Shown here piece after piece: positions 46,958 to 61,963 of a DNA stretch of 64,000 bases. The stretch lies in the NCBI GenBank assembly GCA_949752745.1, contig OX457033.1, forward strand, positions 13,986,970 to 14,050,969, in the 5' to 3' direction. The notes beneath the pieces were generated by a model that was not told the DNA's origin, searched no databases, and was given only the letters and a program-made list of their open reading frames with translations. This DNA is from Protula sp. h YS-2021 (taxonomy: Eukaryota; Annelida; Polychaeta; Sabellida; Serpulidae). Position numbers and translations under genes: made by a program. Position 1 is the first letter of the stretch, and every line of letters begins with the position of its first letter.

Positions 46958-46963
46958 AACAAG
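46958..46963 (+). repeat. Target site duplication, left copy (AACAAG)
   Basis: AACAAG directly precedes the left terminal repeat and occurs again immediately after the right one (61958-61963). A 6-bp duplication is the known signature of Polinton/Maverick integration. Confidence 0.9.
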
Positions 46964-47376: not shown

Positions 47377-47490
47377 GGGCGGCCATTCAAACGACCATTC
47401 AAACGGGCGGCGATTCAAACAACCATTCAAACGGGCAACCATTCAAACGACCAGTCAAACGGGCAGCCAGACAAAATGGCACCCGGACAA
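47377..47490 (+). repeat. Short tandem repeat at the inner TIR edge
   Basis: CATTCAAACGGGCGGC/CATTCAAACGACC units repeat several times. One or two such units are also present beside the right repeat (61571-61600). Confidence 0.8.
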
Positions 47491-47760
47491 AATGGTGCCC
47501 GGACAAAATGACACCCGAGCACCCGAGCACTTGAGCACCCGAGCACCCGAGCACTTGAGCACCCGAGCACTCGAGCACTCGAGCACTCGAGCACTCGAGC
47601 ACTCAAGCACTCGAGCACTTGAGCACCCGAGCACTCGAGCACTCGAGCACTCGAGCACTTGAGCACTTGAGCACTCGAGCACTTGAGCACTCGAGCACTC
47701 GAGCACTCGAGCACTTGAGCACCCGAGCACTCGAGCACTTGAGCACTTGAGCACCCGGAC
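47491..47760 (+). repeat. Ten-base minisatellite (GAGCAC core)
   Basis: About 25 units of GAGCACTCGA / GAGCACTTGA / GAGCACCCGA in irregular order. Frames reading Leu-Glu-Cys-Ser-Ser on the minus strand are artefacts of the array. Confidence 0.95.
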
Positions 47761-48110
47761 AGCAAAGGGTTCATAGAGACATGGTTAGAGCTGGCCTGCT
47801 GTGTATTTTGACCCATCAATGACGTCACACAGAGCGACTCAAGCTTGCAGCCAACTGATGGACAGGCAATCCGGAGCCAGCCGTACAGTAGGTCGACAGG
47901 CCCCCCGGGGCCTGCCATCACCAGGTTGGCAAGCCCCCCGGGGCCTGCCAAACATCAGGTTGGTAGGCCCCCCCCCCCGGCTCACCAACCCATGAGCCCC
48001 CCCCCCCCAGGCCCAGCAATCTTTCAGCATACACTGTATCTATATGGGTGAGCTAGTCGACAGACCCCCCCCCCCCCGGCTCACTGGCCCATGAGCCCTT
48101 TTCTCGATCT
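47761..48110. repeat. C-rich region with CCCCGGGGCCTGCCA repeats
   Basis: Several copies of GGCCCCCCGGGGCCTGCCA-like units and poly-C runs next to CTCACCAACCCATGAGCCCC repeats. No gene seen. Confidence 0.7.
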
Positions 48111-48527
48111 CTAACCAAGCCATTGCAGCAGCAATTAGTAAATGAGCTCTCTTTTTCCTTAAGGGATGCTGTGTTTTAACCACAGAGAGGTCTCCATGCA
48201 TTGCGACCATATACAAGCAACAATCCTTTCTTTAAAGCTTTCTCACTCTTGTAACACCTATGGCAACCAAACCAACGGACACCCAGACACACGGACACCC
48301 AGACACGGACACCCAGACACACGGACACCCAGACAGTCCTTTTTTTTTTTTTTTTTTAGTTTTTATCCCTCTTCACCCACATCAAACCAAACCACGGAAA
48401 CAAGTGTTTTTAGGGCTTTTACACGCATATCCCATCACTAATGGCTTGTCGTAGCAGCAATTAAAAGTGAGCAGCCATTGCCTCCTTAAGGGGGAGAACT
48501 CTCCATGCATTGCGGCTACGAAAACCG

Positions 48528-48619
<92 letters not shown>

Positions 48620-49300
48620 CACACATAGACACACATACATACGTTTTTTTTTAATTTTTATCCCTCTCTCTCTCCACACACACCAAATCACGAAAGCAAC
48701 TGTTTTTCTGCCTTTTCTCGATCTCTAACCAAGCCATTGCAGCAACAATGAGCACTCTTTTCCTTAAGGGGTGCTGTGTTTTAACCACAGAGAGGTCTCC
48801 ATGCATTGTGGCCATATACAAGCAACAATCCTTTCTTTAAAGCTTTCTCACTCTTTTAACACCTATGACAACCAAACCAACGGACACCCAGACACACGGA
48901 CACCCAGACACGGACACTCAGACACACGGACACCCAGACAGTCCTTTTTTTTGTTTTTTTTTTATAGTTTTTATCCCTCTTCACCCACATCAAACCAAAC
49001 CACGGAAACAAGTGTTTTTTAGGGCTTTTACCGTTCTTCCAGCACACACACGTTCACTAATGGATTGCCGTAGCAGCAATTAAAAATGAGCACTCTTTTT
49101 CCTCAAGGAAGAGAGGTGTCTCCATGCATTGCGGCCATATACAAGCAACAATCCTTTCTTTAAAGCTTTCTCACTATTCTAACACCTATGGCAACCAAAC
49201 CAACGGACGCCCAGACACACGGACACCCAGACACGGACACCCAGACACACGGACACCCAGACAGTCGTTTTTTTATTTTTTTTTTGTTCCCTCTCTCTCT
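48100..49300 (+). repeat. Nested tandem array of about 300-350 bp units inside the element
   Basis: Units starting near 48100, 48440, 48713 and 49060 share GCAGCAATTA...GAGC, CTCCATGCATTGCGG, and in three of them ATACAAGCAACAATCCTTTC followed by GGACACCCAGACACACGGAC repeats and a T-tract. Only short non-conserved frames are present. The second unit is interrupted by the AC microsatellite. Confidence 0.85.
48534..48615. repeat. (AC)n microsatellite
   Basis: Uninterrupted AC run within the nested array. Confidence 0.95.
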
Positions 49301-49369
49301 GCACATATAGCAATAGCCACAACTGATTCAGCGTTATATTTCTCAAGCCTGGGTATTTTTTTTAACCCA

Positions 49370-49690
49370 GACAGTGGCTTATTTCTCTCTCTCTCTCTTC
49401 ACACACATAACACAGCAAACGGTCAGACGGACAGATTTAGCGTTTCATTTCTCATGCCAGGGTATTTTTAACCCAGACAGCAAATTCTTTTTGCTTTCTC
49501 AAACGGTCAGACGGACAGATTTAGCGTTTCATTTCTCATGCCAGGGTATTTTTAACCAAGACAGCGATTTGTTTTGCTTTCTCAGACGGTCAGACGGACA
49601 GATTTAGCGTTTCATTTCTCATGCCAGGGTATTTTTAACCCAGACAGCAATTTGTTTAGCTTTTTCAGACGGTCAGACGGACAGATGGAG
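49370..49690 (+). repeat. Four-copy tandem repeat of 83-84 bp
   Basis: GGTCAGACGGACAGATTTAG recurs at 49421, 49504, 49588 and 49671 (the last copy diverges), each followed by CATGCCAGGGTATTTTTAAC and CCAGACAGC. No coding frame is conserved. Confidence 0.9.
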
Positions 49691-49727
49691 CTATAAATCA
49701 ATGATTTATAGTCCTCTTTTTTTTTTA

Positions 49728-49800
49728 GCATTTCCCACACTCTCATTCATACTAAGATTGCCTGATGAAGCGTTTTATTTCGTAATAATGGGAGGGCCGC
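49728..49800. repeat. Left subterminal inverted segment matching the right end
   Basis: AGCATTTCCCACACTCTCAT plus TCATAC is the reverse complement of sequence at 61530-61556, immediately inside the right TIR. On the left the same sequence is separated from its TIR by the repeat arrays at 47377-49690. Confidence 0.8.
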
Positions 49801-49813
49801 TAAAAAGCGGCCC
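49794..49813 (-). terminator. 3' stem-loop downstream of the minus-strand gene at 49981-50790
   Basis: Perfect 7-bp inverted repeat GGGCCGC / GCGGCCC with a 6-base A/T loop, followed on the minus strand by an AATAAA. It is placed like the histone-type stem-loops at 60175 and 61462, but stem and loop sizes do not match the histone consensus. Confidence 0.55.
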
Positions 49814-49980
49814 TGGAGGGATTTCCGTAGTCTGGTCCTGGTCACTGCCTCTTGTCATCAGTTCTCCTGCCGCTGTCACTGCCTCCCGCCATCGGTTCTC
49901 CTGTCGCCGCCACTGGCGCCGCCGCTGACGCCACCGCTGGCACCGCTGCCGCCACCAACCTCGCCACAGCCACACTTCCT

Positions 49981-50790
49981 CTAATGCGCCGCAACCGCGG
50001 CCCTGCTCGAGGTGAATCCTTTGCCCTGGACACTACAAAAATAATATTGGGACTTCAAAGCCTCCGGGCATTGCTGCTCATGCATTCTCATTGAATATTC
50101 TACCGGATAGCCAAAATGGCAGAATTCACAATATTTAACATTATCCAAAGAGCCCAAGATTTGCATGACCTCCTGGAAATCTGACTCTTTTCTAGAGACA
50201 TCCTCCACTTTCATCTGAGCAGGTTCGTTGTTGCGGTCAGTGTTTGAAGGTGACTGTATGAGGCTGACTGTATCCGAAATACTGGCGACAGCGATTGTAA
50301 GCTCATCGTCAGGAGCTGGTGGCGGACTGTCCGGTCTTGTAACGGTAGCGGTTGGTGCCGCCAGCACCTTCCGGACAGTCACATCAGCTTCCTTTTGATT
50401 CACTTTCAACGGGGTCGTCATCGTTGACGCAGCGACTTTGACAGGAGTCGCTCTGGCAGGAGGAGTCTCTGTCATCGTTGCTGCGATCACTCTGGCTGGA
50501 GGAGTCTCTGTCATCGTTGTCGCGGTCACTCTGGTCACTCTGGTCACTTCCTGGCAGGGCGGCAGGTGCCTGGACGGCGAACGATGGCGTAGTCGCTTAT
50601 GGCTCTCCTCCGCCGCCCTGCCAAACCGGTTGAACTGTTCCTCTGGTCTGTTCCTAAGGAAATCCCTCCACTTTCGAAACAGAAAGGTCTGGTACTCAAT
50701 ATAAATCTCCTCCCAGACGTCGACATCCTTCGCTGATAGAAAGTAGCGACCCCGAAGCTCATCTGAGAAAAACTCGTCCTTGTACTGCAT
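49981..50790 (-). CDS. Hypothetical element protein with C-terminal zinc finger
   Basis: 269 residues from ATG at 50790, chosen because the frame further upstream has no ATG (a TTG at 50817 and open sequence beyond). The N-terminal third is a mixed acidic/basic alpha-helical region with many aromatic residues, next to a short basic RS-containing stretch. The middle is a low-complexity Thr/Pro/Ala region with a duplicated TMTETPPAR unit. The C-terminus holds a C2HC finger (C221-x2-C224-x12-H237-x3-C241) similar in spacing to the finger at about residue 450 of the polymerase. It lies alone at the left end of the element, in mirror position to the RING gene at the right end, and its upstream region shares the motif GTCCT..CTTCAGGT with that gene. 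Function unknown; a nucleic-acid-binding or regulatory role is a guess. Confidence 0.6.
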   Translation of the reverse strand: MQYKDEFFSDELRGRYFLSAKDVDVWEEIYIEYQTFLFRKWRDFLRNRPEEQFNRFGRAAEESHKRLRHRSPSRHLPPCQEVTRVTRVTATTMTETPPARVIAATMTETPPARATPVKVAASTMTTPLKVNQKEADVTVRKVLAAPTATVTRPDSPPPAPDDELTIAVASISDTVSLIQSPSNTDRNNEPAQMKVEDVSRKESDFQEVMQILGSLDNVKYCEFCHFGYPVEYSMRMHEQQCPEALKSQYYFCSVQGKGFTSSRAAVAAH

Positions 50791-50897
50791 GATTAAATTT
50801 CGATGTGTTCGCTTCAAAGGTTCAAAGCAGACTGACTGACTGCCCCTGGCCAGTCGACCTGAAGCGAGGACCCCCTCCCCGCCCAGCTACCTAGTGA

Positions 50898-51341
50898 GCC
50901 CCCCCCCACCCGGCCCGAACAATTCAATCACAACAACAACAACGACAAAAGTCTGTTACAACATCTAATGCAGAAAAATCAGAAAAGTCTCAACAGTTTC
51001 TAAACCATTTTCAACCCATTTATCATGTAAAACTAACACAACTTCTGGCAGAACTTAAGAAATATGGTACGAGATGGACAGATAAAAATGAACTTGTTTT
51101 AAAAACAGGTACTATCATTACAAATTCTAACATTATTGATTTGTTGAAAGAAGCATTGGTTGCTACAAAAAGAAAAGAACGACGAGAACCACGGCGTGGT
51201 TGGAAGCAGTTTATTGAGGAAATTGTAGACGCTAATATTCCAAAAACTGTTTTTGGCAAAAAGACAACTCGTGAAGATATTACTAAAGAGCAACAACAAC
51301 GTCAACAAAGATTGTTTCCAGAAGGATGGGAAACTTTTTAA
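50898..51341 (+). CDS. Open frame without ATG upstream of the capsid block
   Basis: 147 codons open between a stop at 50895-50897 and the stop at 51341, with no ATG anywhere in frame. The first in-frame near-cognate codon in the region of composition similar to neighbours is TTG at 51141. The inferred peptide has a Gln-rich start, then KKYGTRWTDKNELVLKTG, and a highly charged Lys/Arg/Glu helix with REPRRGWKQF. It overlaps the next gene by 16 bp, as in a compact viral transcript. Most likely it is the 3' exon of a spliced gene (candidate acceptor at the AATGCAG near 50972) or it uses a non-ATG start. No family recognised. Confidence 0.45.
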   Translation, partial: APPHPARTIQSQQQQRQKSVTTSNAEKSEKSQQFLNHFQPIYHVKLTQLLAELKKYGTRWTDKNELVLKTGTIITNSNIIDLLKEALVATKRKERREPRRGWKQFIEEIVDANIPKTVFGKKTTREDITKEQQQRQQRLFPEGWETF

Positions 51342-51535
51342 CATGGATTAAAGAGCTATGGTGTTGTTGTTGTAAAGAAAATGGAAATAAAAATACTATT
51401 CCTGTAAAAATTAGGTGTGTTAGTGCTTGTTGTCAGGGAGAAGTAGTAGATACCAATTTAGATCATGTAGATAGCAATTTAGACAATAATGTAGACAGCA
51501 ATGTAGAAAGTGAGGATGAAGAGTGTCAAACCTGA
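51326..51535 (+). CDS. Small protein with probable N-terminal acylation motif
   Basis: 69 residues starting MGNFLTWIKELWCCCCKENG. Gly2 followed by Asn fits an N-myristoylation site, and the run of four Cys at 13-16 beside a Trp/Leu-rich helix fits palmitoylation, so membrane attachment is likely. A second CC lies at about 35-36. The C-terminal half is acidic with a repeated VDSN(L/V) unit. It sits between the ATG-less frame (16-bp overlap) and the penton-like gene. No family is recognised; a role in egress, membrane association or host signalling would be inference. Confidence 0.55.
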   Translation: MGNFLTWIKELWCCCCKENGNKNTIPVKIRCVSACCQGEVVDTNLDHVDSNLDNNVDSNVESEDEECQT

Positions 51536-51589
51536 AGTAATGTATATACACATCTAGTCTATCTACATCACATAAACGATTTAGCTGCC

Positions 51590-52354
51590 ATGGAGTCAAC
51601 AAGTTTTTACATTACTTTACCCAGCAATGCTAGTATGAACTATTATCCCAACAACAAGACTTCGAATTATCAAATTCGTATGCCTCGAACCATCTATCTG
51701 AACGGAAAATATGAAGTGGCTTTAGCTGAAATTCAATATCCACATACATGGACAACCATGAGACATGGAATGGACGATTCTATTCAGTATCGACAACAAC
51801 CACTGAATAATATTGTTCTTGACACAATCAATATTCCTTATGGTTACTACAGATCCATACAAGAGATATGTCAGGCAGTCAATAAAGAAGCAACTAATTC
51901 TATGAAAGATGACCTTAAAGAAGCTATTCAGATAAAGTATGATAAAATTAGACGACGTGTTTTTCTATTTCTAAATTACGGCTTTGAAGTGTCATTCTCC
52001 ACTGGATTAGCTGAGATTTTAGGATTTATCCCAGATCAATGGTATACTGAAACGTGCACAGCTGAACATAAAGCCGATGTGAAACAGGGATTTTATACAC
52101 TTTATGTGTACTGTAGTATTTGTGAGCCACAAGTTGTTGGTGATTATTATGTTCCTTTGCTACGTTCTGTTGGAATACAAGGACATGATGGAGACATTAT
52201 CATGAAAACTTATGGAGAACCTCATTATGTTCCTGTAAACACATCCAAATTTGACGTGATAGAAATGAATATTAAGGACGACACAGGCCATAATGTTCCA
52301 TTTCAAACTGGAAAGGTGATCTGTAAACTTCATTTTCGACCAAAAGCATTATGA
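51590..52354 (+). CDS. Penton base-like minor capsid protein
   Basis: 254 residues, ATG in a good context (GCCATGG). The N-terminus FYITLPSNASMNYYPNNKTS followed by a region with YEVALAEIQYPHTW is characteristic of the single-jelly-roll penton-like protein of Polintons and adintoviruses in invertebrates. In that family it forms the five-fold vertex of an icosahedral particle. The stop overlaps the start of the next gene by 4 bp (ATGA), and order (penton, pX-like, hexon-like, protease) matches a virion morphogenesis module. I see no truncation. The fold assignment rests on the remembered family signature. Confidence 0.8.
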   Translation: MESTSFYITLPSNASMNYYPNNKTSNYQIRMPRTIYLNGKYEVALAEIQYPHTWTTMRHGMDDSIQYRQQPLNNIVLDTINIPYGYYRSIQEICQAVNKEATNSMKDDLKEAIQIKYDKIRRRVFLFLNYGFEVSFSTGLAEILGFIPDQWYTETCTAEHKADVKQGFYTLYVYCSICEPQVVGDYYVPLLRSVGIQGHDGDIIMKTYGEPHYVPVNTSKFDVIEMNIKDDTGHNVPFQTGKVICKLHFRPKAL

Positions 52355-52707
52355 AAGCATACACACACAATCCATCTATTTATCGCAACCATTTTCTTCG
52401 TCAAGTGGGTGGAGAATTACCAGGATTTAAAGGAGCGCGAATACAATATGGAGATGGTATTGGTTCAATACTGGGATCATTGGCTCGAAAAGCTATTCCA
52501 CTGCTTAAGACAGGGGCTAAAATCGTTGCACCACATCTTAAAAGGGCTGCAAAAGATATCGCGAAAGATGTTACAGGTCGAGTAGCACAACGTATGTTTG
52601 GTGGTGGGTTACGAGGACAAAAGAGACCGAAACGAGCAAAACGTGTCAGAAGGCGAAAGGCAGCTAAACGGATAACATCAAAAAAACATAAGAAAGATAT
52701 TTTTTAA
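52351..52707 (+). CDS. Adenovirus pX/pVI-like basic virion core or membrane-lytic protein
   Basis: 118 residues. A glycine-rich start (about 20-36) is followed by an amphipathic helix (about 37-75, SILGSLARKAIPLLKTGAKI and on) and an extremely Lys/Arg-rich tail (90-115) suited to DNA binding and nuclear import. This architecture is that of the small pX/pVI-type proteins of adenoviruses and adintoviruses. Two matches to the adenain cleavage rule ([MILNQ]-x-G-G|x) are visible: QVGG|E at 18-22 and MFGG|G at 82-86. The second would separate the helix from the basic tail, as a maturation step by the protease encoded at 54080. It overlaps the penton-like gene by 4 bp and is followed after 2 bp by the capsid gene. 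Confidence 0.7.
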   Translation: MKAYTHNPSIYRNHFLRQVGGELPGFKGARIQYGDGIGSILGSLARKAIPLLKTGAKIVAPHLKRAAKDIAKDVTGRVAQRMFGGGLRGQKRPKRAKRVRRRKAAKRITSKKHKKDIF

Positions 52708-52709
52708 TC

Positions 52710-54083
52710 ATGTCTTTAATTCATAATCATTCTTGTGAATGTAGCCTTTCTCCATTAGAATGGTTTCACATACCACCAACGCAAACTGCTGTAGAAAAAA
52801 GTTATAATGTAGACTATCAACCAATGACTACCATTAGAGAGGGTGCTCCAATAGAATTCTACATTCCTGCGAGTACAGAAGAATATCTAGATTTAAAGAA
52901 CAGTAAACTCCATATTGTATGTCGCATTGTCAAGGCTGATGGAACACTGTGTGGTGTAGATGATAACGTGTCAGGTATCAATGATTTGTTTAATGGGTTA
53001 TGGTCCAATATTGAATTATTTCTGAATGATCGTTTGATATCACATAGTAACAATACCCATGGTTATACTAGCATCATATCTCATCTCATTCATGACTCGG
53101 AAGAAAGTCTCCATTCTGAGCGCTCTATGCGTCTCATCTTTAAAGATACTGCCGGATCAATGAATACTTATGAGGTGAAAAGACCTAATCATGAAAGATA
53201 TGTATCAGGTTTTCATGTAAATATTGAAGGTGGTGATATAGCTGAAACAGGAAATAATGGTTTACATAATCGCTATTTGTATACACGTCTAAGCCGTGAG
53301 TTTGCGCTTACAGGTGGTTTAAGGGTAGATTTGTTTGAGCAGGATCGTTATCTTCCCAATGGTGTTAGTATGAAATTACGTTTACATAGACAAAAAGATG
53401 GATATGTATTAATGGCTGCAAATAATGGTTTTAAAGTAGAAGTGAGAGAAGCGTTTTTAACCATTCGCCAAGTTGGGGTTAGTCCAGGTATTCAGTTGGG
53501 ACATGCAGATGCATTGATGAAAAGTCCTGCTAAGTTTATTGTTAATAGAAAAGAATGTAAAGTTTTAGCTATTCCAACTGGATTTCAATCTTTTGTGAAA
53601 GATAGCATCTTTTTAGGCCAATTACCAAAACGTATTGTCATTGGAATGGTTCATAATGAATCCTTTGCTGGAACAGTATTGAGAAATCCATACAATTTTG
53701 AACATTTTAATCTTAACTTTATGCAGCTTTACTCTGATGGTGAACCAGTCCTATCCAAACCTCTCAAGCTTGATATAAATGAAGGCAAATATCTTGATGC
53801 TTTTGAAACTCTTTACAAATCTTTTGACAGATTGGATGGCGAGAAAAGTTCCATTATAAAACGGGATGATTGGCCTAGAGGTTATTCGTTGTTTTCTTTT
53901 GACTTAACACCTGATTATGATGGTGCTGATCATTATGCCCTTATCAAACATGGGAATTTGAGACTAGAAATGAATTTTGCTGGTGCCTTGCAAAATACAG
54001 TCAATGTTATAGTGTATGCTGAATTTGATAACATTGTTGAAATAAGTGCAAATCGTAGCATTCAATTCGACTACCAGTCATGA
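52710..54083 (+). CDS. Major capsid protein, double jelly-roll (hexon-like)
   Basis: 457 residues. The N-terminus (SPLEWFHIPPTQTAVEKSY, then PIEFYIPASTEEYLDL) and the later region with LRLHRQKDGYVLM and EVREAFLTIRQV are typical of the major capsid protein of Polintons/adintoviruses, which form hexon-like trimers by two jelly-roll domains. Length is normal for the family. Position between the pX-like gene and the protease, with a 4-bp overlap to the latter, supports the assignment. The frame is intact, so the particle shell could be made. Confidence 0.85.
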   Translation: MSLIHNHSCECSLSPLEWFHIPPTQTAVEKSYNVDYQPMTTIREGAPIEFYIPASTEEYLDLKNSKLHIVCRIVKADGTLCGVDDNVSGINDLFNGLWSNIELFLNDRLISHSNNTHGYTSIISHLIHDSEESLHSERSMRLIFKDTAGSMNTYEVKRPNHERYVSGFHVNIEGGDIAETGNNGLHNRYLYTRLSREFALTGGLRVDLFEQDRYLPNGVSMKLRLHRQKDGYVLMAANNGFKVEVREAFLTIRQVGVSPGIQLGHADALMKSPAKFIVNRKECKVLAIPTGFQSFVKDSIFLGQLPKRIVIGMVHNESFAGTVLRNPYNFEHFNLNFMQLYSDGEPVLSKPLKLDINEGKYLDAFETLYKSFDRLDGEKSSIIKRDDWPRGYSLFSFDLTPDYDGADHYALIKHGNLRLEMNFAGALQNTVNVIVYAEFDNIVEISANRSIQFDYQS

Positions 54084-54517
54084 ACACGAAGCAGATAGAA
54101 GCCATCCTATCCCATGATGCCACGACAAAAGACTTGTTTCAAGGTGTGTTTGCCATGGACCAGTTACCATCTTTACAACGCGGTGCCTATGTCATCAACA
54201 CAGACGATCATGATGAGCCAGGAGAGCATTGGGTGGCAGTATATTATGACGAAGACCCTGCAGAATATTTTGACTCTTATGGACTTTTACCTATAGACAG
54301 TCGTTTGAATAAGTTTTTAAAGTTTAATTTCATTTATAATTCAGTTCCATTACAAACACCGATATCCTCTACATGTGGATTTTATTGTATATATTATATA
54401 ATTCAAAGAGCTCGAGGACATAGTCCTTTTGAAATCATTGATGTATTAAGAAGAAGTGATGGTGATTTTGTTGTAAAGGATTTTGTATATAGACATTATA
54501 AACCATTATTTTATTGA
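54080..54517 (+). CDS. Adenain-like cysteine protease (peptidase C5 family)
   Basis: 145 residues, overlapping the capsid gene by 4 bp. The catalytic arrangement of adenain is visible: His50 in EHWVAVYY, Asp65 in YFDSYG, Gln92 in LQTP for the oxyanion hole, and Cys99 in SSTCGFYCIYY. In adenoviruses and Polintons this enzyme matures capsid and core proteins after consensus Gly-containing sites, two of which occur in the pX-like protein of this element. Somewhat shorter than adenovirus adenain (about 200 residues) but all key residues are present. It is the last gene of the plus-strand block, and an AATAAA lies at 54584-54589. Confidence 0.9.
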   Translation: MNTKQIEAILSHDATTKDLFQGVFAMDQLPSLQRGAYVINTDDHDEPGEHWVAVYYDEDPAEYFDSYGLLPIDSRLNKFLKFNFIYNSVPLQTPISSTCGFYCIYYIIQRARGHSPFEIIDVLRRSDGDFVVKDFVYRHYKPLFY

Positions 54518-54583
54518 TGTTGTATTAGTTAAGTTGCATTAGTTAAGTTGTTGGTAATTGTGAATTGTATTATGAATATTGTA

Positions 54584-54621
54584 AATAAACAAGACAGTTT
54601 TATACAACATTCTTTTTTATT
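54584..54621. promoter_or_regulatory. Back-to-back polyadenylation signals for convergent transcripts
   Basis: AATAAA on the plus strand at 54584-54589 (after the protease gene) and on the minus strand at 54616-54621 (after the last PC4-like gene) face each other 26 bp apart, marking the collision point of the two transcription units. Confidence 0.7.
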
Positions 54622-54667
54622 GTGTTATACATTATTTACATTTTAACAATTATTTCACATTAAGCTT

Positions 54668-55066
54668 TTATTTTACAAATACATTCAATACATCGATAAA
54701 CACATGCCATTCATACCAATCTAAATTAATATATGTATCATAGACATTACATCCACGTTTGTAAATGCTATGAAAACTAGCATAACACTGTCCATTACCA
54801 AACTTTATTATTTTAACATCTTTGTGTTCAGACAGTTTCAGTTCATATCCATGATCATTCATGTCAATGTTCATCACCATAACACACATGGGATGCGTCA
54901 GTTCAATGGACTTGGTGCCTCGCATGAGTTGCACTCCTTCCTCTTTGAATTCAAGCGTCAGGTTCTTTCCAATCCAATGCTTGTAACAGAGCGTGCCATT
55001 CCACTGTGTTGAGGGTGATGTAGTCGTAGCATTTTGTAAGCTCGTCATATTGGCGAAATCGTACAA
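54668..55066 (-). CDS. PC4-like small protein, fourth member of the array
   Basis: 132 residues. Its C-terminus (HKDVKIIKFGNG, then YINLDWYEWHVFIDVLNVF) follows the strand-strand-'I.L...EW....' helix pattern of transcriptional coactivator PC4/p15, a dimeric single-stranded DNA-binding fold. The same pattern, centred on a Trp (here EW at 119-120), occurs in the three genes upstream. The first 116 bp overlap the preceding gene in another frame. The sequence resembling the other members begins inside the overlap, so a downstream Met (residue 49) would remove part of the domain. I keep the long version, but a frameshift or reinitiation is possible. Confidence 0.55.
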   Translation of the reverse strand: MYDFANMTSLQNATTTSPSTQWNGTLCYKHWIGKNLTLEFKEEGVQLMRGTKSIELTHPMCVMVMNIDMNDHGYELKLSEHKDVKIIKFGNGQCYASFHSIYKRGCNVYDTYINLDWYEWHVFIDVLNVFVK

Positions 55067-55301
55067 ACACGTCTAAATAGTTCTCAGTCACACGCACTTC
55101 TAAATCCTCTGAGAGTTTCAGGAGAAAGCCAGGTATCCTCAGCTTCTCTAGATGGTCTTTCAACACAGATTGTTCGTCAGTTGAAAGAATGATATACTTT
55201 CCAAAATGTTTTAGCACGATGTCATCATATACGTTTATCAGATATGAGAATCCATGCGTAATGGGTTCATATTCCGATAAAAAGTCTTCCATCTCGTTCA
55301 A
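54951..55301 (-). CDS. PC4-like small protein, third member of the array
   Basis: 116 residues, acidic. After an N-terminal region with GKYIILST (34-41), the C-terminal half reads DLEVRVTENYLDVFVRFRQY and then YDYITLNTVEWHALLQALD, matching the PC4 order of beta strands, the 'I.L...W' turn and a terminal helix. The basic loop of true PC4 is not conserved, so DNA binding may differ. It lies 46 bp downstream of the second member and overlaps the fourth. Its role is inferred only from the fold and the neighbouring polymerase. Confidence 0.6.
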   Translation of the reverse strand: MNEMEDFLSEYEPITHGFSYLINVYDDIVLKHFGKYIILSTDEQSVLKDHLEKLRIPGFLLKLSEDLEVRVTENYLDVFVRFRQYDELTKCYDYITLNTVEWHALLQALDWKEPDA

Positions 55302-55347
55302 CAGTCAGATGAACTATGAGCTGTCTCTTTGTCTGCAAAGACGTTTT

Positions 55348-55719
55348 TTATGCTCGCAAGATGGCGAAGAGTGGATGTTGTATCACTTCTAGGAATCGTA
55401 AGACTGCGCGCCAGTTCTTCGTATCAAAGATAATCAAATCTGTATATGGTGTATCTGGCACAACTCCCTTATAATCCTCTGGATAATCCTGTAAAAGATT
55501 TCTACAGATTTCTACACGTATGTTAGAATCATATTCAGCCACCGTCACTTCCACTTTATTTTCAAGTCTACGTTTAAACCCAGGTTCAAGTGGTATGTTT
55601 TTAAAGTCTTTCCACACTTCAGGTTTAAACCGATGATAACTTCTCTGAGAATCTAGTATCACTTCATTCCTATCATTTACAGTAAGGTAAGCACCACCGT
55701 TCAGCATGAGTGCATTCAT
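55348..55719 (-). CDS. PC4-like small protein, second member of the array
   Basis: 123 residues. The N-terminal part GGAYLTVNDRNE (8-19) resembles the start of the third and fourth members. The C-terminal part NKVEVTVAEYDSNIRVEICR followed by LIIFDTKNWRAVLRFLEVI follows the PC4-like strand/Trp/helix layout, with Trp103 at the key position. It is 12 bp downstream of the first member, so the array is probably one transcript. Confidence 0.6.
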   Translation of the reverse strand: MNALMLNGGAYLTVNDRNEVILDSQRSYHRFKPEVWKDFKNIPLEPGFKRRLENKVEVTVAEYDSNIRVEICRNLLQDYPEDYKGVVPDTPYTDLIIFDTKNWRAVLRFLEVIQHPLFAILRA

Positions 55720-55731
55720 GTTTTTACCTTG

Positions 55732-56088
55732 TTATGAGCCACCTTCTTGTCTGCGAAGCCTTTTATCCACTTCTTTCACCTGCTTCTTCAGCATTTTCCA
55801 TTCAGGTATTGTCAGCAAAATTCCCTTTTTCGTTGGACGGTTTTTTCCAGTCCCCTCATCTCTCAGGTACTTGCGAATGTTTACCACTCCTTCATTGCTT
55901 TGTTTCATAATCTTGATATACTTTCCATTTCCTAGAGAAAGCATTCCATCCCACGACTGTGGTGTTGGTGCTGTCTCCACTTTCAATTTCTTGATGGTAG
56001 TGGTAGGATTTTTCACTTTTAAGTCTTTAACTGCATCTGCAAGAGTATCCATATCAGTTGTAGATCTCTTACGACATTCACGTTCCAT
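55732..56088 (-). CDS. PC4/p15-like single-stranded DNA-binding protein
   Basis: 118 residues. Residues 51-112 match the C-terminal domain of the transcription coactivator PC4 (SUB1): GKYIKIMKQSNEGVVNIRKY, a basic loop with NRPTKKG, then ILLTIPEWKMLKKQVKEVD. PC4 forms dimers that bind single-stranded DNA and act in transcription and DNA repair. The N-terminal 45 residues are basic and probably disordered, like the N-terminal region of PC4. Beside a protein-primed polymerase, which exposes long single strands, a ssDNA-coating role is plausible. It is first in a four-gene array, with a TATA box at 56139-56151. The best supported member of the group. Confidence 0.75.
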   Translation of the reverse strand: MERECRKRSTTDMDTLADAVKDLKVKNPTTTIKKLKVETAPTPQSWDGMLSLGNGKYIKIMKQSNEGVVNIRKYLRDEGTGKNRPTKKGILLTIPEWKMLKKQVKEVDKRLRRQEGGS

Positions 56089-56138
56089 GTTAACACTTCA
56101 ATGTTCACACCTCAAATAACTCTTCCGTTGGAGGACCT

Positions 56139-56151
56139 CCCCCTTTTATAC
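56139..56151 (-). promoter_or_regulatory. TATA box of the PC4-like array, containing the polymerase stop codon
   Basis: Minus-strand TATAAAAGGGGG, about 60 bp before the ATG at 56088. The TAA stop of the polymerase gene (56146-56148) is inside it. The same string precedes the polymerase gene at 60114-60126. Confidence 0.7.
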
Positions 56152-59100
56152 CACAGCCTTGTAATGTCCATGCGCTAAGGTGGAATAGCCATCATTCAGC
56201 ACATATCGCTTGTCGTCATATGGGGAGAGGGCTACTTTCCTCAACTTCTCCGAGAAAAGCTGGTGACTATGACTTCGGATAATGTGTCCTGTAGCCATCG
56301 TTTGAGTTTTCTTGAACAAACTGTCTCTATACTGCACATGTTTAATGCGTCTTTGACAAGCTCGAGTGATGCCTTTAGCTGTATGTTTTTCTTTCCCACC
56401 GCACAATAAACTGTACATTTTCGGTCTGAGTCCAACAAACTCTTCAATGGGGACGCCGGCCGTCTCATCCTTCATTTTCCCAAGCACTTTTTTGTTCACG
56501 TTGGAATGTAGGAAATGATCCGGCGGATAGTCACTTGTGTCGAACAGGTCAGCATCCTGCTGCATATCCTTGTAGATATCTTCCGTTTCTATGTCGTAAC
56601 ATAGACTGTCGGTGTCGCTGAACAATAACTTGGCATTGGGATACTTGACCATGATGTAGTTGTAATGAAAGTTGAACATAAGCACTTTGCTGAGGTCGAG
56701 AATGGTGAAACCAACTTGAATGGGTTTATCCAGAAGCAAATCCACTTTGCGCAAATGTACCGCAGTCAAATCTTCGTTGAAAATTTTGAATTTGTGGAAA
56801 GAAGGTTTGGCTACAAGTTTCTTGAACCGCTTTTCCTTGTGAACAAGTTCAACATTGATTCGCTTTCTCACATTTTCCATGGTTTTGCCAAACACCGAGT
56901 TGTTCATCAGTTTGAAGAAGTCTTTCTCAAATGGGTTCTTGGCCAATTTTCTCTTTTCCGTATTCAAGGCAATGTATTTTGCCAACCATTTGCTCTGTTC
57001 AAACATGATGGCGCGATGTACTTTAGTGACTTTCAATCCCAGTGAGACGTACTGTTGTAAATTCCTGTAATGAAGTACATATTTCTTCTTGTCAGACAAG
57101 TTAGGAATAAGCTTTTCACTGGGTTTGCCTTTCATGTTTAGATCTTCCAGTAGCTTCTGACTGTACTCTGACAATTCTCCAAATTTGACACATTTCCGTT
57201 CTGGAGCAACTGGGTAGTAATTATGACGATCATGGATTGAATTTGGATATTCTAAATCCACTTCCAAAATGAATCCAATGTCATCATCTTCATCCACATC
57301 CATGAAGTCGAGGGATTCTGGCTCGCTCACCCACATAAATCCTCTTTGTGGCATGCTTTGTGACATGGCCCAGCCGTACAAGTTGTTTGCGTCGAGGTAC
57401 ATCAGGTAGTTGTTTGGTATCTCAGAATTGTATTCTGCTACGTAGGGATTATTCGCTTTCGCATACTTGTGTATGATCACAGATATTCCTCCACGTATGC
57501 CTTGCTCAACCATTTGGTACATGTCAATGTCATTGATCAATTCCAACTTCACCTTTGTCGCTTTCAACATTGCATCCCACGACAGTCCTGGTGCTGTATA
57601 GTAATGAGCAGGATCCAATTCATACGTGTTGAGGCATACTTGACGAAAGTTTTCAAACACGTCAGCTAGTAATAACACATCTGATTTCAGGTACAGGTCG
57701 TGGTATTCACCAAATGTTGTACAGTTGAATGTATCCCACACCTTCTGTGCATGCGCATAATCCTCATCGCTAATGTCCTCTTCGCTAAGCTGACTATAAA
57801 ACTTATCCTTTGATGGTAGCTGTGTTTCAGCAAACTTGGATGGCTCGTCCACGTAATCATAGGGGTACACTCCCTTTCTCAGCAGCAAATCTTGTTGATC
57901 ACTATCGTGAATGTGAGAGGTCATGTTGTAGAAGTTATCTTTCCCTTCTGCTGCAAGGTTGGATACCAACTTCTGTAGAGAGGTACTCATGAACTGAAAG
58001 CTGTCTGTAAATTTCAGATTGCTCAGGGTGAATGCAATATATTTCTCAATGGTGTTGGGAATGACTGTAATCGTTTCATCTTTGAATTTCCCAATTTCCT
58101 CCATGATAAGGTGACTGTCATAGCCTCGCAAATTGTGGAAAAATACGGGAATGATAAAAGAATCTTTATCCCCTTGCTGATCTTTTCTAAGTCGGAATTG
58201 TAAGTTGCATTCATTGTGCGCTGCTCCACGATATTTGCCATTGATATGGTCATGATCTCTCACACGATCTGCTCCTAGAGGTTCATGACAAATGTAGCAA
58301 TCAACAGCGTTCTTGAAATTCTCTTTGTCTTCACGAGTCATCACCATTTCCTTTGGCCGCTCTAAACCACGTACAATACGATCACGTTCATTCACCATAT
58401 GGTCTAAAAAGACTTTCACAGCATTGTCTCCTCGATACACAACTGGTGCACGTGTGTCGTACTGGCTTACAACCACATAGGCAAAGCTGTTTGGACGATG
58501 ATGTTGATACTTGTCTCCTTCTTCATGCTTTTGCGTGAAACATTCAAAGTCGGCATAAATCATAAAAGGTGCTCGCTGTTGTTTAGCCACATTCTTGAAC
58601 TTGATGAAGGGTTCCTTGGGAAATGATAAACGTTGTGCTCCATTCTTGTCACACACTTCACGATGTTTATCTAAAAGATCTTGTCGTACAAACCCGTGAA
58701 GACAGTTGAAACAATAAAAATATGCAGCCTTATGCTTTGATCGATAACACATAAGTCTGCTAAAATTCTTGATGAGGCAGTAATGCCTCGTCTTGTCATT
58801 GCTAATCAGAAGTAAGTTGATTTCTCTCACACTGACGTTTCGACTAAGTTGTATTGGAACAACTACATCTTGTTCATATCCAAACACGTTGATGGCTACA
58901 TCGTTCTCCTTTTCAAACTTTGGAATGTCAGTAATTGGTGTCGGAAATGTCATGCCCTCTACCTTTAATTCCTTCTCAAATGGTTTGTAATGATTCACGC
59001 GATTTGGGTTGTTGTCATGAGGGTGAAGGTAAGCCAATACTGACCATAAGAAACACTTGTTATCATCATCATTCTTAATGTTTATCACACCCTTTGTTTT

Positions 59101-60051
59101 CTTCACTTTCTTCGGTAGTGGAATAAAACTGCTCGCTTCTAGAGGAACCAACGTAGCTGTATGTACTTCAATGTACAGTATGTTATCCAATACCCAGCCA
59201 GAGCCTTGTCGCTCATGTTCGTCAAACTTGGTAAATAATTCTTTATAGGCTTCTGGCAGGTCCTGCTCAATATCTGCTGGATTGTATGCTGCATATGTTG
59301 GACTGCTGATAAATGCATTATCAACTTGTTCTACCATAACACCTTCATCATTTGCTGTCAGTTTCTTGAAACGTGCGTGTACGACAATGTACCATTTCAT
59401 TCCATGGCTTAAGGTCTCCAACAAATGTGCCTTGATACGGTTCTCTTGCTGTCGCATTTCAAGCAGTAAATCCGATCCATCCTCGGGCTCAAACCGTTTT
59501 TCCTGCGCGTTTTCACCAAGACTAACCCTTCTACCTCTCCCTACTTGTCCTGTCTTTTGTTTCTTTGAAACATGTTCTTGAGACACATTTTCCATCTCAG
59601 CTGGTTTACATGCATGTGCCTCAAAAGTATCCATAGATGGAAACTCTTCATTGCATTCCGCACACTGGACTGGACCGTATGGCCAAATGTCATCTTCTTC
59701 CATCTTTTCTCTCTTTGCTCCTTTCCCTTCATGTTTCACTAAAGTTTTCATCTCAGCTTTGCATGTATGTGCTTCAAAAGTATCCATAGATGGAAATTCC
59801 ACATTACATTCCCCACACTGGACTGGACCGTATGGCCAAATGTCATCTTCTTCCATCTTTTGTCTCTTTGCTCCTTTCCCTTCATGTTTCACTAAAGTTT
59901 TCATCTCAGCTTTGCATGTATGTGCTTCAAAAGTATCCATAGATGGAAATTCCACATTACATTCCCCACACTGAACTGGACCGTATGGCCAAATGTCATC
60001 TTCTTCCATCTTTTGTCTCTTTGCTCCTTTCCCATGCCCTTCACGTTCCAT
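56146..60051 (-). CDS. Protein-primed family B DNA polymerase with zinc-finger repeats and embedded endonuclease VII-like domain
   Basis: 1301 residues, uninterrupted. Order: three tandem 51-residue repeats (about 7-159), each with a C-x2-C...H-x-C finger (CGECNVEFPSMDTFEAHTC); a domain at about 321-395 (INIKNDDDNKCFLWSVLAYL) common in Polinton polymerases of invertebrates; a C2HC finger near 450; exonuclease motifs IYADFECF (about 496), HNLRGYDSHLI (about 638) and YLKSDVLLLADVF (about 785); between Exo I and II an HNH/endonuclease VII-like module CYICHEPLG...DHDHINGKYRGAAHNECN (about 584-617); polymerase motifs A (YLDANNLYGWAMS, about 884), B (KLMNNSVFGKTMENVRKR, about 1045) and C (FSDTDSLCYD, about 1141). 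It would replicate the element using a terminal protein primer. The catalytic residues are all present, so the enzyme may be active. A TATA box lies at 60114-60126. Confidence 0.95.
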   Translation of the reverse strand: MEREGHGKGAKRQKMEEDDIWPYGPVQCGECNVEFPSMDTFEAHTCKAEMKTLVKHEGKGAKRQKMEEDDIWPYGPVQCGECNVEFPSMDTFEAHTCKAEMKTLVKHEGKGAKREKMEEDDIWPYGPVQCAECNEEFPSMDTFEAHACKPAEMENVSQEHVSKKQKTGQVGRGRRVSLGENAQEKRFEPEDGSDLLLEMRQQENRIKAHLLETLSHGMKWYIVVHARFKKLTANDEGVMVEQVDNAFISSPTYAAYNPADIEQDLPEAYKELFTKFDEHERQGSGWVLDNILYIEVHTATLVPLEASSFIPLPKKVKKTKGVINIKNDDDNKCFLWSVLAYLHPHDNNPNRVNHYKPFEKELKVEGMTFPTPITDIPKFEKENDVAINVFGYEQDVVVPIQLSRNVSVREINLLLISNDKTRHYCLIKNFSRLMCYRSKHKAAYFYCFNCLHGFVRQDLLDKHREVCDKNGAQRLSFPKEPFIKFKNVAKQQRAPFMIYADFECFTQKHEEGDKYQHHRPNSFAYVVVSQYDTRAPVVYRGDNAVKVFLDHMVNERDRIVRGLERPKEMVMTREDKENFKNAVDCYICHEPLGADRVRDHDHINGKYRGAAHNECNLQFRLRKDQQGDKDSFIIPVFFHNLRGYDSHLIMEEIGKFKDETITVIPNTIEKYIAFTLSNLKFTDSFQFMSTSLQKLVSNLAAEGKDNFYNMTSHIHDSDQQDLLLRKGVYPYDYVDEPSKFAETQLPSKDKFYSQLSEEDISDEDYAHAQKVWDTFNCTTFGEYHDLYLKSDVLLLADVFENFRQVCLNTYELDPAHYYTAPGLSWDAMLKATKVKLELINDIDMYQMVEQGIRGGISVIIHKYAKANNPYVAEYNSEIPNNYLMYLDANNLYGWAMSQSMPQRGFMWVSEPESLDFMDVDEDDDIGFILEVDLEYPNSIHDRHNYYPVAPERKCVKFGELSEYSQKLLEDLNMKGKPSEKLIPNLSDKKKYVLHYRNLQQYVSLGLKVTKVHRAIMFEQSKWLAKYIALNTEKRKLAKNPFEKDFFKLMNNSVFGKTMENVRKRINVELVHKEKRFKKLVAKPSFHKFKIFNEDLTAVHLRKVDLLLDKPIQVGFTILDLSKVLMFNFHYNYIMVKYPNAKLLFSDTDSLCYDIETEDIYKDMQQDADLFDTSDYPPDHFLHSNVNKKVLGKMKDETAGVPIEEFVGLRPKMYSLLCGGKEKHTAKGITRACQRRIKHVQYRDSLFKKTQTMATGHIIRSHSHQLFSEKLRKVALSPYDDKRYVLNDGYSTLAHGHYKAVV
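59575..60033 (-). repeat. Three in-frame 153-bp repeats at the polymerase N-terminus
   Basis: Units 60033-59881, 59880-59728 and 59727-59575 each encode a 51-residue zinc-finger module. Units one and two are almost identical, and the third is more diverged, which indicates recent in-frame duplication. Confidence 0.95.
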
Positions 60052-60113
60052 CTTAGCTAGTTGTTGTTACGTCAACTGCTGAAACTAAAATGCTGAAATG
60101 TAATCTCAAACAT

Positions 60114-60126
60114 CCCCCTTTTATAC
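60114..60126 (-). promoter_or_regulatory. TATA box of the DNA polymerase gene
   Basis: Minus-strand TATAAAAGGGGG about 70 bp before the ATG at 60051. Identical core to the box before the PC4-like array, suggesting co-regulated replication genes. Confidence 0.7.
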
Positions 60127-60174
60127 ACATTCATACATAGACAGAATTTGCGTTTTCATTTCATAACAGAGGAT

Positions 60175-60190
60175 GGCCCTTAAAAGGGCC
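60175..60190 (-). terminator. Histone-type 3' stem-loop after the Cys-rich gene
   Basis: On the minus strand GGCCCTTTTAAGGGCC, a 6-bp stem with a 4-base loop, agrees at every position with the metazoan histone mRNA 3'-end consensus (GGCYCTTTTMAGRGCC). It lies about 25 bp after the stop of the 60215-60568 gene and is preceded by ACTAACATCT, as is the stem-loop at 61462. Confidence 0.75.
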
Positions 60191-60214
60191 GAAAGATGTT
60201 AGTAATTCGACGCT

Positions 60215-60568
60215 TCACCAGCAAGTCGGATTGCCACAGTCGCACTGGTATCTGTAAAACTGTTCCATGGAGAACGGTCGTCGCGAGCACTTGAACGGAT
60301 GACGGTTATAGTAGCCAAAGTTTTTTAGTGTCGCTCCACACCACCAGCAGTCCGTGCATGGCTGCGGTCCTGGCAATCTCGCAGTAAACTTGTACCAGAG
60401 CAGTCCACCGCAAGTTTTGCAGCAGTAATGTCGTGGTGCATTGTGGTGCACCGGGCAGTTGTGTGGTTGACCTGGGTACTCCAACCATACCCAACACTTA
60501 TAACACTCAGTCGTTAGCGTCACTGCCTTGCCGTTTCGCATCACTGTGATTTTACGACTTGTTGACAT
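60215..60568 (-). CDS. Small Cys-rich zinc-binding protein
   Basis: 117 residues with four pairs or clusters of cysteines: CYKC (22-25), CCKTC (49-53), CTDCWWC (71-77) and CDCGNPTC (109-116), plus single Cys at 38 and 94 and several His. The pattern suggests three or four structural zinc sites, with many aromatic residues between. No family recognised. A TATA box (minus strand TATATAAAG at 60607-60615) lies about 40 bp before the ATG. It shares a divergent, G-run-rich intergenic region with the RING gene and ends with the same type of histone-like stem-loop. Role unknown; DNA/RNA binding or host interaction would be guesses. Confidence 0.65.
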   Translation of the reverse strand: MSTSRKITVMRNGKAVTLTTECYKCWVWLEYPGQPHNCPVHHNAPRHYCCKTCGGLLWYKFTARLPGPQPCTDCWWCGATLKNFGYYNRHPFKCSRRPFSMEQFYRYQCDCGNPTCW

Positions 60569-60606
60569 CTTGCTGCTTGTGTTGGATAATGCAGCTGTAA
60601 CCCACC

Positions 60607-60615
60607 TTTATATAC
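60607..60615 (-). promoter_or_regulatory. TATA box of the Cys-rich gene
   Basis: Minus-strand TATATAAAG about 40 bp before the ATG at 60568. Confidence 0.6.
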
Positions 60616-60645
60616 TACTAGCGAACATCCTCGCATTATATGCTG

Positions 60646-60816
60646 ATGGGGGGGGGGTCCTTACTTAATGCAAGTATTTCGTGCTATCCCGGGGGGGGGG
60701 GTCCTGAGTTTAGGTCGGCTAGGGGGGGGGGGTCCTGAGTTTAGGTCGGCTGGGGGGGGGGGTCCTGACTTTAGGGCGACTGCATGGGGGGGGGGGGGTC
60801 CGATCCTGACTTCAGG
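60646..60816. repeat. G-run tandem repeat in a divergent promoter
   Basis: Five runs of ten or more G, three to four of them followed by GTCCTGAGTTTAGGTCGGCT or a variant. The array lies between the divergent Cys-rich and RING genes. The runs could form G-quadruplexes. A related GTCCT..CTTCAGGTCGACT motif with G-runs precedes the minus-strand gene at 49981-50790. Confidence 0.75.
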
Positions 60817-60819
60817 TGG

Positions 60820-60826
60820 TATATAA
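60820..60826 (+). promoter_or_regulatory. TATA box of the RING gene
   Basis: TATATAA about 45 bp before the chosen ATG at 60870, directly after the last G-run/CTTCAGGT motif. Confidence 0.65.
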
Positions 60827-60869
60827 CCCATGCTCATTTCAGTTTGGGCTCACACTCGCTTCCGTCAAC

Positions 60870-61421
60870 ATGGAGTGCTTCTTCGGGTTACATGATGCTC
60901 GCACCATTGCTGAAGTTAGAGAACTTCACCTGCCTGTCACACAGCCACAGACACCGCCAGAAAGAGTCTACTTCTTCCAGCTGCTGCCAGACCCGGTTCA
61001 TGGATCCATCATGTGCGTGCCCGTCCTGTACAACCGTCAAGTCACGATTGGAAAGAGGCTCAGAGATATAGAGGCTGGTCACTATGATGAAGCGTTCTTT
61101 AGAACGATGATGCTAGGGGAGTCAATACCTTCGCGGATGGAAGAAGAAGAGTACCCGGCCTGGGGGAGATTCTTCCTCCAGCAAGACTTGGATATTTGCC
61201 CAGGATGTGGGTGTATGATCTCCCCAGACCGGGTGCTGTCTGAGTGCAACCATCAAATGTGCCTGGTCTGCGCGGCGCACTGGACTCAACTGCTGGCGCT
61301 AAATGACCGCTACTCTGTGAGGTGCTTTACCTGCGGCATGCGAGGGGACCACTTTTTGTTCAACGGGCAACAGCTCACACATTGCAGTAGGCCAGTGCAG
61401 GACATTGTGACATTCTTTTAA
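60870..61421 (+). CDS. RING finger protein (putative E3 ubiquitin ligase)
   Basis: 183 residues from the ATG at 60870 (context CAACATGG, correctly spaced from a TATA box; the open frame reaches further upstream through the promoter but has no better start). The C-terminal part holds a C3HC4 RING: C110-x2-C113-x12-C126-x-H128-x2-C131-x2-C134-x17-C152-x2-C155. The N-terminal 105 residues have no recognised domain and end in an acidic EEEE stretch. RING proteins usually bring E2 enzymes to substrates, and DNA viruses often use them against host defence or for early gene activation; that role here is inference. The 3' end carries a histone-type stem-loop 41 bp after the stop. Codons are GC-richer than those of the capsid block, suggesting a different origin. 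Confidence 0.8.
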   Translation: MECFFGLHDARTIAEVRELHLPVTQPQTPPERVYFFQLLPDPVHGSIMCVPVLYNRQVTIGKRLRDIEAGHYDEAFFRTMMLGESIPSRMEEEEYPAWGRFFLQQDLDICPGCGCMISPDRVLSECNHQMCLVCAAHWTQLLALNDRYSVRCFTCGMRGDHFLFNGQQLTHCSRPVQDIVTFF

Positions 61422-61461
61422 ACCGGGACCGGCAGCAGCAGGAGAAAAACTAACATCTCCT

Positions 61462-61477
61462 GGCTCTTTTAAGAGCC
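61462..61477 (+). terminator. Histone-type 3' stem-loop after the RING gene
   Basis: GGCTCTTTTAAGAGCC, 6-bp stem and 4-base loop, matches the metazoan histone mRNA consensus GGCYCTTTTMAGRGCC at all positions. It lies 41 bp after the stop and is preceded by ACTAACATCT, exactly as in the Cys-rich gene. Confidence 0.8.
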
Positions 61478-61588
61478 TACCACTGATACTGAAATAAGCG
61501 CTAATCGTGTCATGGTGTTAGTATGTATGTGTATGCATGAGAGTGTGGGAAATGCTTTAAAAAAAAATGGTCACCCGTTTGAATGGTT

Positions 61589-61957
61589 GTTTGAATGGCC
61601 GCCCACTCTCCATATTACGTCATTATGACGTTCATATGACGTTCATATGACGTTCATATGACGTTCATATGACCTCCATATCACCTCCATAACACGTCCA
61701 TAACACGTCATAATGACGTCACTGTTTTAGAAACCCCATGGGGCTTCTAAAACAACTCCTCACGTCATTATGACGTTCATGTGACGTTCATATGACGTCC
61801 ATATGACAACCATATGACGTCCATATGACGTCAATATCACGTCAATATGACGTCAATATCACGTCACTGTTTTAGAAACCCCATGGGGCTTCTAAAACAC
61901 CTCATGACGTCATTATGACGTCACTTCCTGTTTTAGAACCCCCACTTTCCCCCTACT
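61589..61957 (-). repeat. Right terminal inverted repeat
   Basis: Reverse complement of 46964-47376, with about one substitution in the outer 100 bp and four fewer 11-bp units. It ends ACCCCCACTTTCCCCCTACT-like (terminal CT), followed by the target duplication. Confidence 0.95.
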
Positions 61958-61963
61958 AACAAG
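61958..61963 (+). repeat. Target site duplication, right copy (AACAAG)
   Basis: Identical to 46958-46963. Confidence 0.9.

Follow-up and report, generated by a model that had tools for sequence, protein, structure and literature searches.

Why should genes of a virus-like element end in the manner of the histone genes of the animal that carries it? The question is raised by a stretch of 64,000 nucleotides from the serpulid annelid Protula sp. h YS-2021 (the window; C10:13986970-14050969 of the 863-Mb host genome), which harbors a Polinton/Maverick-like element with two accessory genes, one for a Cys-rich protein and one for a RING-like protein. Each gene is followed by a 16-nt hairpin (SL1 and SL2, respectively) of the type found at the 3′ ends of replication-dependent histone genes. 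It is highly likely that both genes carry the host histone-type 3′ signal, such that their transcripts would be cut by the stem-loop binding protein SLBP and the U7 small nuclear ribonucleoprotein (snRNP), lack a poly(A) tail, and be made mainly in S phase. This reading rests on the hairpins, their position past the stop codon, a downstream box at histone spacing, the match to host histone genes, the persistence of the hairpin among diverged copies, where changes in the stem are paired, and the presence of SLBP-like domains in the host. A great many copies of the virus-like element exist in this one animal's genome. Among five hits for the GPCR of the window, the only named one is from Capitella; the named hits for host H1 among the best 120 are mostly from molluscs (Mytilus, Tegillarca, Lottia, and Haliotis), with one from a shrimp and two from bacterial bins. 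By themselves, these hits would point to a lophotrochozoan host, probably a mollusc.

The two hairpins had been reported by a first-pass annotation of the window and are present where, and in the sense in which, it had placed them (Table 1); the case for them proves stronger than that annotation had made it. Both match the hairpin pattern exactly in the sense of their genes; with up to two mismatches allowed, the window contains four matches (the two sites read on both strands) versus 0.46 expected by shuffling. The claim of that annotation that the match extends to every position holds for the 16-mer. The 5′ flank reads TTTC/TCCT, unlike the A-rich Rfam consensus; the flank of the host H4 gene is nearly identical to that of the element (aactaacacttttc). 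The sequence said to precede both hairpins, ACTAACATCT, has just two occurrences in the whole window, each 3 nt ahead of a hairpin. No AATAAA or ATTAAA is found within 400 nt downstream of either the Cys-rich or the RING gene.

Table 1. Features of the element in window coordinates; distances past stop codons run from the last base of the codon to the start of the hairpin (HDE, histone downstream element; ORF, open reading frame).
Feature	Position	Strand	Remarks
SL1, histone-type hairpin	60175..60190	-	GGCCCTTTTAAGGGCC; 6-bp stem, loop UUUA; 24 nt past Cys-rich stop
HDE-like purine box	60150..60162	-	GAAATGAAAACGC; starts +13 after SL1
SL2, histone-type hairpin	61462..61477	+	GGCTCTTTTAAGAGCC; 40 nt past RING stop; TACCA follows
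HDE-like purine box	61491..61501	+	GAAATAAGCGC; starts +14 after SL2
SL3, degenerate third hairpin	49796..49811	-	GCCGCTTTTTAGCGGC; inside 9-bp stem, beyond left-end ORF
HDE-like box	49770..49781	-	GAAATAAAACGC; starts +15 after SL3; includes an AATAAA
Cys-rich accessory gene	60215..60568	-	117 aa, one open frame
RING-like accessory gene	60870..61421	+	183 aa, one open frame
TATA-like box, upstream of Cys-rich gene	60607..60614	-	read from sequence
TATA-like box, upstream of RING gene	60820..60827	+	read from sequence
Polinton/Maverick-like element	46964..61957		14,994 bp; terminal inverted repeats
Left-end ORF	49981..50817	-	278 aa, reads outward to SL3
Major capsid protein, predicted double jelly-roll	52710..54083	+	without hairpin
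Adenain-like protease	54080..54517	+	Pfam Peptidase_C5, 21.4 bits vs cut-off 21.3
PC4-like protein	55732..56088	-	Pfam PC4, E 2.4e-9
Long ORF, PolB-like by motifs	56146..60051	-	N-terminal zinc-finger-like repeats

The histone genes of the host provide the most direct comparison. PF00125 has 60 matches in the host genome, mostly in tandem on C7; 3′ ends were searched at 30 loci of these matches, the H2A and H2A.X-like ends were fetched separately, and the H1 end was left out. All H4 ends read (hairpin 20 nt past the stop) and all H2B ends read (25 nt) carry GGCTCTTTT[C/G]AGAGCC, and 9 of the 16 H3 ends read carry, 23-37 nt past the stop, GGCTCTTTTAAGAGCC, i.e., the 16-mer of SL2. The only H2A end read (L128) has GGCTCTTTTCAGAGCC with TGAAATGAACGC. 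A host H2A.X-like gene (L129, C6:39750740-39751040; C-terminal SQEY) ends in a 16-mer identical to SL1, GGCCCTTTTAAGGGCC, followed by GAATAAGC. A GAAAT[A/G]A-type purine box lies about 13 nt after the host H2A, H2B, H3, and H4 hairpins (host boxes TGAAATAAACGC, TGAAATCAGCGC, AGAAATGAACGC, and AGAAATAAGC), and the element boxes are found at the same spacing. Thus, the comparison with host histone genes and the purine-rich element downstream of the hairpins, both proposed as checks by the first-pass annotation, bear out its reading of histone-type 3′ ends, which is supported.

A covariance model (R1) was derived from six 3′ ends of host histone genes, all with an intact hairpin and all from loci that a pattern search for the hairpin had identified. 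In the 64-kb window, this model ranks SL1 first (39.4 bits, E 8.3e-8) and SL2 second (33.2 bits, E 3.9e-6), followed by SL3 (17.1 bits, E 0.086) and a next match of 15.0 bits (E 0.32). SL3 starts 169 nt past the stop of the left-end ORF, and the DNA beyond it at the left end of the element aligns with the DNA beyond SL2 at the right end. On 30 host loci (28 of the element and two of histone genes), the model yields 40 matches up to E 1, in which 8 cells are changed on both sides of the stem versus 1.6 in shuffles (25 distinct rows).

Terminator-like hairpins were considered separately and rejected: in 38 IMG/VR contigs with the pattern GGCYCTTTTAAGRGCC, the purine box follows the hairpin in none, and the host-histone model reaches a top score of 22.7 bits. 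A related proposal is that the hairpins are generic palindromes for transcription end or polyadenylation, as in giant viruses and virophages, their histone likeness being due to convergence. Transcript ends in mimivirus follow a “hairpin rule”, and the hairpins described here do lie past stop codons in an element with a virophage- and giant-virus-like capsid. However, a generic palindrome is not expected to keep a histone-type loop, the second G-C pair, and the purine box of the host at fixed spacing. Furthermore, an AATAAA follows the capsid/protease unit of this element at 67 nt, and no such hairpin is present there. The proposal is judged very unlikely. The use of AATAAA by the capsid and PC4-like units had been part of the first-pass annotation, and this claim stands in part. 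The signal is present after the capsid/protease unit; two minus-strand ORFs (54668 and 54951), neither of which matches any Pfam family, also have it, at 47 and 142 nt, respectively. Neither the long ORF nor the ORF at 55348 has one in the 400 nt that follow, and the gene for PC4 is the ORF at 55732.

Histone-type ends are retained in most of the element copies examined. The SL1 16-mer has 900 occurrences in the host genome (455 + 445) and none in a reversed control; any 16-mer at equal base frequencies would be expected less than once by chance. Of the first 31 places listed, 28 were analyzed, the other three being copies already among the Cys-rich listing. A Cys-rich-like coding match stands beside the hairpin in 27 of them and a RING-like match in one; in one place (L002) the hairpin loop is reversed in the sense of the gene. 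GAAAT[ACG]A is found in 25/28 places, always at +13 (11/14 distinct haplotypes), compared with a background of 1.1% of 24-nt windows in those loci. At 10 of the loci selected by SL1, RING homologues of 42-96% identity lie nearby, nine of which have kept the RING hairpin (L114 was left out of this set as it was selected by its own hairpin).

A second set of 40 RING copies was chosen by protein identity (56-98%) and not by hairpin from 150 listed. It includes all 21 copies of 59-76% identity that reach the C-terminus and a further 19 selected manually, of which 11 have 91-98% and eight 56-58% identity; four copies of 66-80% identity, which end short of the C-terminus, were omitted. A recognizable hairpin site is present in 40/40 (12-16 of the 16 consensus positions), with the 6-bp stem fully paired in 29 and the box present in 38. 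The distance from stop to hairpin is 18-49 nt in the 37 copies for which an in-frame stop was read, and the hairpin variants include GGTCCTTTTTAGGACC, GGCCCTTCTAAGGGCC, and CGCTCTTTTCAGAGCG. A chance origin of the hairpins is rejected by the shuffles, the histone-trained model, and the 28-place and 40-copy sets.

For the analysis of paired changes, 33 rows were aligned, comprising 30 of the 40 RING copies, the window, L114, and L007; the remaining 10 copies repeat a 16-nt hairpin already present and are all fully paired. In the 28 distinct rows, 92.3% of cells are paired versus 82.5% in shuffles, and 20 cells are changed on both sides versus 7.2 ± 2.6, neither value being reached by any of 500 shuffles. 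The covariation score is 0.332 versus 0.148 in shuffles (0/500 reach it), with slid controls at or below 0.124. The shuffles leave relatedness in, so that these statistics, which agree with the compensatory retention that the first-pass annotation had suggested looking for, are to be read as supports and not as probabilities. Stem pair 2 is G-C in 26/28 rows and unpaired in two, and is never another pair type; the G of this pair is needed by SLBP.

Several results weigh against the proposed reading. In the window, SL1 and SL2 score 27.3 bits (E 3e-4) and 20.6 bits (E 0.1) with RF00032, below its gathering score of 34, and the second G-C pair is missing from SL3 when this hairpin is read in the 16-nt register. 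The host histone ends are themselves non-uniform: in six H3 copies the hairpin is shortened to GGCTCTTAAGAGCC and the box is altered, and another H3 end has no hairpin. (The shortened copies, L056-L061, belong to one array type, in which the adjoining H4 is intact.) Among element copies, L005 has lost the end of the RING gene together with the 5′ arm of the RING hairpin, the loops are altered in L002 and L080, and the box is lost in L109. The stem is imperfect in 11/40 RING copies, and the loop starts with A or G in several of them. In the pair analysis, two of the five measures, the number of pairs with a double change (3 vs 2.0, matched in 91/500 shuffles) and the number of further pair types (7 vs 6.2, 171/500), do not exceed the shuffles. 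A search of the host for U7 small nuclear RNA with RF00066 gave no matches (its control was uninformative), pattern searches gave 22 matches versus 9 in the reversed control and 11 versus 11, and the U7 candidates fetched (14 + 6 + 7 short stretches) contain no convincing 3′ stem. The sole relative from another host, L001 (JACCHT010000004.1), found among GTDB contigs in a bin that bears the name of a Bathymodiolus symbiont and probably host DNA within a bacterial assembly, has no histone-type hairpin. Poly(A)-free, S-phase-coupled expression is thus an inference from histone biology. Finally, the full stem is present in 9/13 RING copies with internal stops and in 20/27 without, which gives no evidence of recent selection acting on individual copies. 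Most copies may be too young for decay to have set in.

The near-equal retention of the stem in copies with internal stops also favors the proposal that the 3′ end of a histone gene was carried along with its flanks as passive cargo, the signal now being inactive. The likeness of element and host H4 flanks (ACTAACA..CTTTC) points in the same direction. Set against this proposal, the signal stands behind not one gene but two, RING copies at 44-67% identity still have it, and the paired changes point to structural constraint. In addition, the hairpin, the ACCCA sequence, and the box vary less than their surroundings, with column identities of 0.81-0.95 in 24 of the 40 RING copies versus 0.53-0.59 farther out; this profile is ungapped from the hairpin, so that indels lower the outer values. 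Passive cargo is considered very unlikely. The resemblance of the flanks bears on the origin of the module under the preferred reading of a working signal as well: because the H4 flank ACTAACACTTTTC resembles the element flank ACTAACATCTTTC, the hairpin module probably came from a host histone gene.

It could also be proposed that the palindromes act as DNA, forming cruciforms or serving as binding sites for proteins close to the ends of the element, with a role in replication, packaging, or transposition. Two hairpins lie less than 2 kb from the right end and SL3 less than 3 kb from the left end, and several pairs of places carry hairpins about 15 kb apart in opposite orientation. Each hairpin, in contrast, is located shortly past the end of a gene and in the sense of that gene, with a histone-type box on the corresponding side, and a function as DNA is regarded as extremely unlikely.

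As described in PMC7026596, histone pre-mRNAs in animals are cut between the hairpin, to which SLBP binds, and the downstream element, with which U7 snRNA pairs. In Hydractinia, according to PMC5011920, the combination of hairpin and HDE marks the histone genes with expression restricted to S phase; most variants lacking the hairpin are replication-independent. The host genome contains five matches over cut-off to PF15247, the SLBP RNA-binding domain, the best at C6:41144731-41145563. Besides the C6 gene, SLBP-like RNA-binding domains are present at C2:21203349-21205329 and C5:50309132 and may represent extra SLBP genes.

A histone-type mechanism can be proposed for the two accessory genes of the element. 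Host SLBP would bind the element hairpin and the host U7 snRNP would pair with the element box, leading to cleavage a few nucleotides past the stem and leaving the RING and Cys-rich mRNAs non-polyadenylated. These mRNAs would then be made, translated, and destroyed alongside histone mRNAs, timing two regulatory-looking proteins to a phase rich in DNA precursors for replication of the element. The capsid/protease unit and some of the small minus-strand ORFs carry AATAAA instead. Hairpin ends may offer the additional benefit of compactness, as SL1 sits only 123 nt upstream of the start codon of the long ORF at 60051.

The assignment of the element is based on its boundaries and gene content. Its termini, AGTAGGGGG...CCCCCTACT, are flanked by a 6-bp duplication, AACAAG (46958-46963 and 61958-61963, read from the sequence), and both the terminal inverted repeats and the 6-bp target duplication of Polinton/Maverick elements are present. 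A double jelly-roll capsid, also characteristic of this group, is predicted: the model of the capsid ORF (predicted local distance difference test score, pLDDT, of 86; built from 38 sequences) retrieves the major capsid proteins of PBCV-1, iridovirus, Sputnik, and mavirus with Foldseek (best E 2.7e-16, template modeling score ~0.5-0.6), and the protein has 560 homologues. The long ORF contains DTDS and DANNLYGWAM, picked out by eye, which we take to be PolB motifs; it matches no Pfam PolB model and has no solved relative by sequence. No integrase or ATPase was detected in the window copy with the proteins of L001 as queries, which include a capsid protein, an IVa2/FtsK-like ATPase, and an integrase whose match to rve lies below the cut-off. 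Searches of IMG/VR by capsid or long ORF confirmed no relatives. Regions 47300-49600 and 51000-51350 of the window copy hold repeats and the remnant of an upstream gene (51075-51257). As an integrase and a packaging ATPase were not found in this copy, the claim is kept to a “Polinton-like” element, of which this copy may be non-autonomous or have undergone internal deletion.

The Cys-rich protein matches no Pfam family above cut-off, and the RING gene product has weak zf-C3HC4/IBR matches under the Pfam cut-off. Both genes are present in at least 150 copies in the host genome (Cys-rich, 150 scored among 2539 candidates; RING, with a diverged copy as query, 150 scored among 2230 candidates). 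In one subfamily (L006, L008, L113, L115-L117, and L127), the Cys-rich protein is shortened and ends in ...QPHNCC just before the hairpin, such that part of the protein is gone and the hairpin and box are retained. Pairs of Cys-rich genes with histone hairpins also occur about 15 kb apart and facing each other, as though each pair occupied the two ends of a single element (on C1, 5570125/5584577, 12497221/12511942, and 14012659/14027518; also L110/L111, L121/L122, and L123/L124). In the window, the region between the divergent Cys-rich and RING promoters (60645-60815) contains long runs of G, which recur together with GGTCCTGA..TTTAGG-like units.

It is likely that a whole lineage of DNA-virus-like transposons captured a histone 3′ end and wired two to three of its accessory genes to SLBP and U7; these would be the first virus-type mRNAs known to be finished as histone mRNAs, with regulators coupled to host DNA replication. 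To our knowledge, the histone 3′-end pathway is otherwise tied to histone genes. If this reading is correct, a virus-like element reads the host cell cycle via RNA processing and not via promoters, such transcripts might escape poly(A)-selected RNA-seq, and many natural sequence variants become available for the study of SLBP and U7 recognition. The reading also predicts a new place in which to seek such signals, namely past the stop codons of the accessory genes that other animal Polintons carry.

Among the open-access papers listed for this subject, which leave subscription journals largely uncovered, and in the accessible parts of PMC11071296 and PMC11071308, no earlier report was found of a histone 3′ end on a gene of a virus or transposon; the accessible part of PMC9145170 contains no match for the terms sought. 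The element ends share several features with replication-dependent histone 3′ ends (RF00032 and HDE): a 16-nt hairpin 18-49 nt past the stop in the 37 RING copies (20-37 nt in the host), in many copies, a stem followed by an ACCCA-like sequence, and a purine box mostly at +13 to +17. Like histone genes, the Cys-rich and RING genes are single ORFs with no AATAAA nearby. Unlike in the histone system, the genes that bear the hairpins are accessory genes of a virus-like element and encode no histones. The element box is of the host-histone type, GAAAT[A/G]A..CGC, whereas the mouse core is AAAGAG in the accessible part of PMC7026596. The terminal inverted repeats, 6-bp duplication, predicted double jelly-roll capsid, adenain-like protease, and PolB-like ORF are shared with Polinton/Maverick elements (Polintoviricetes) and adintoviruses, from which the window copy differs in having no detectable integrase or ATPase. 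As in the hairpin-signaled polyadenylation of mimivirus and virophages, the element hairpin is found shortly past the stop codon; however, the hairpin in those viruses marks polyadenylated ends, while the loop and downstream box of the element are of the histone type. The element carries two histone-type gene ends and a degenerate third, which the literature searched did not show as described for Polintons or adintoviruses.

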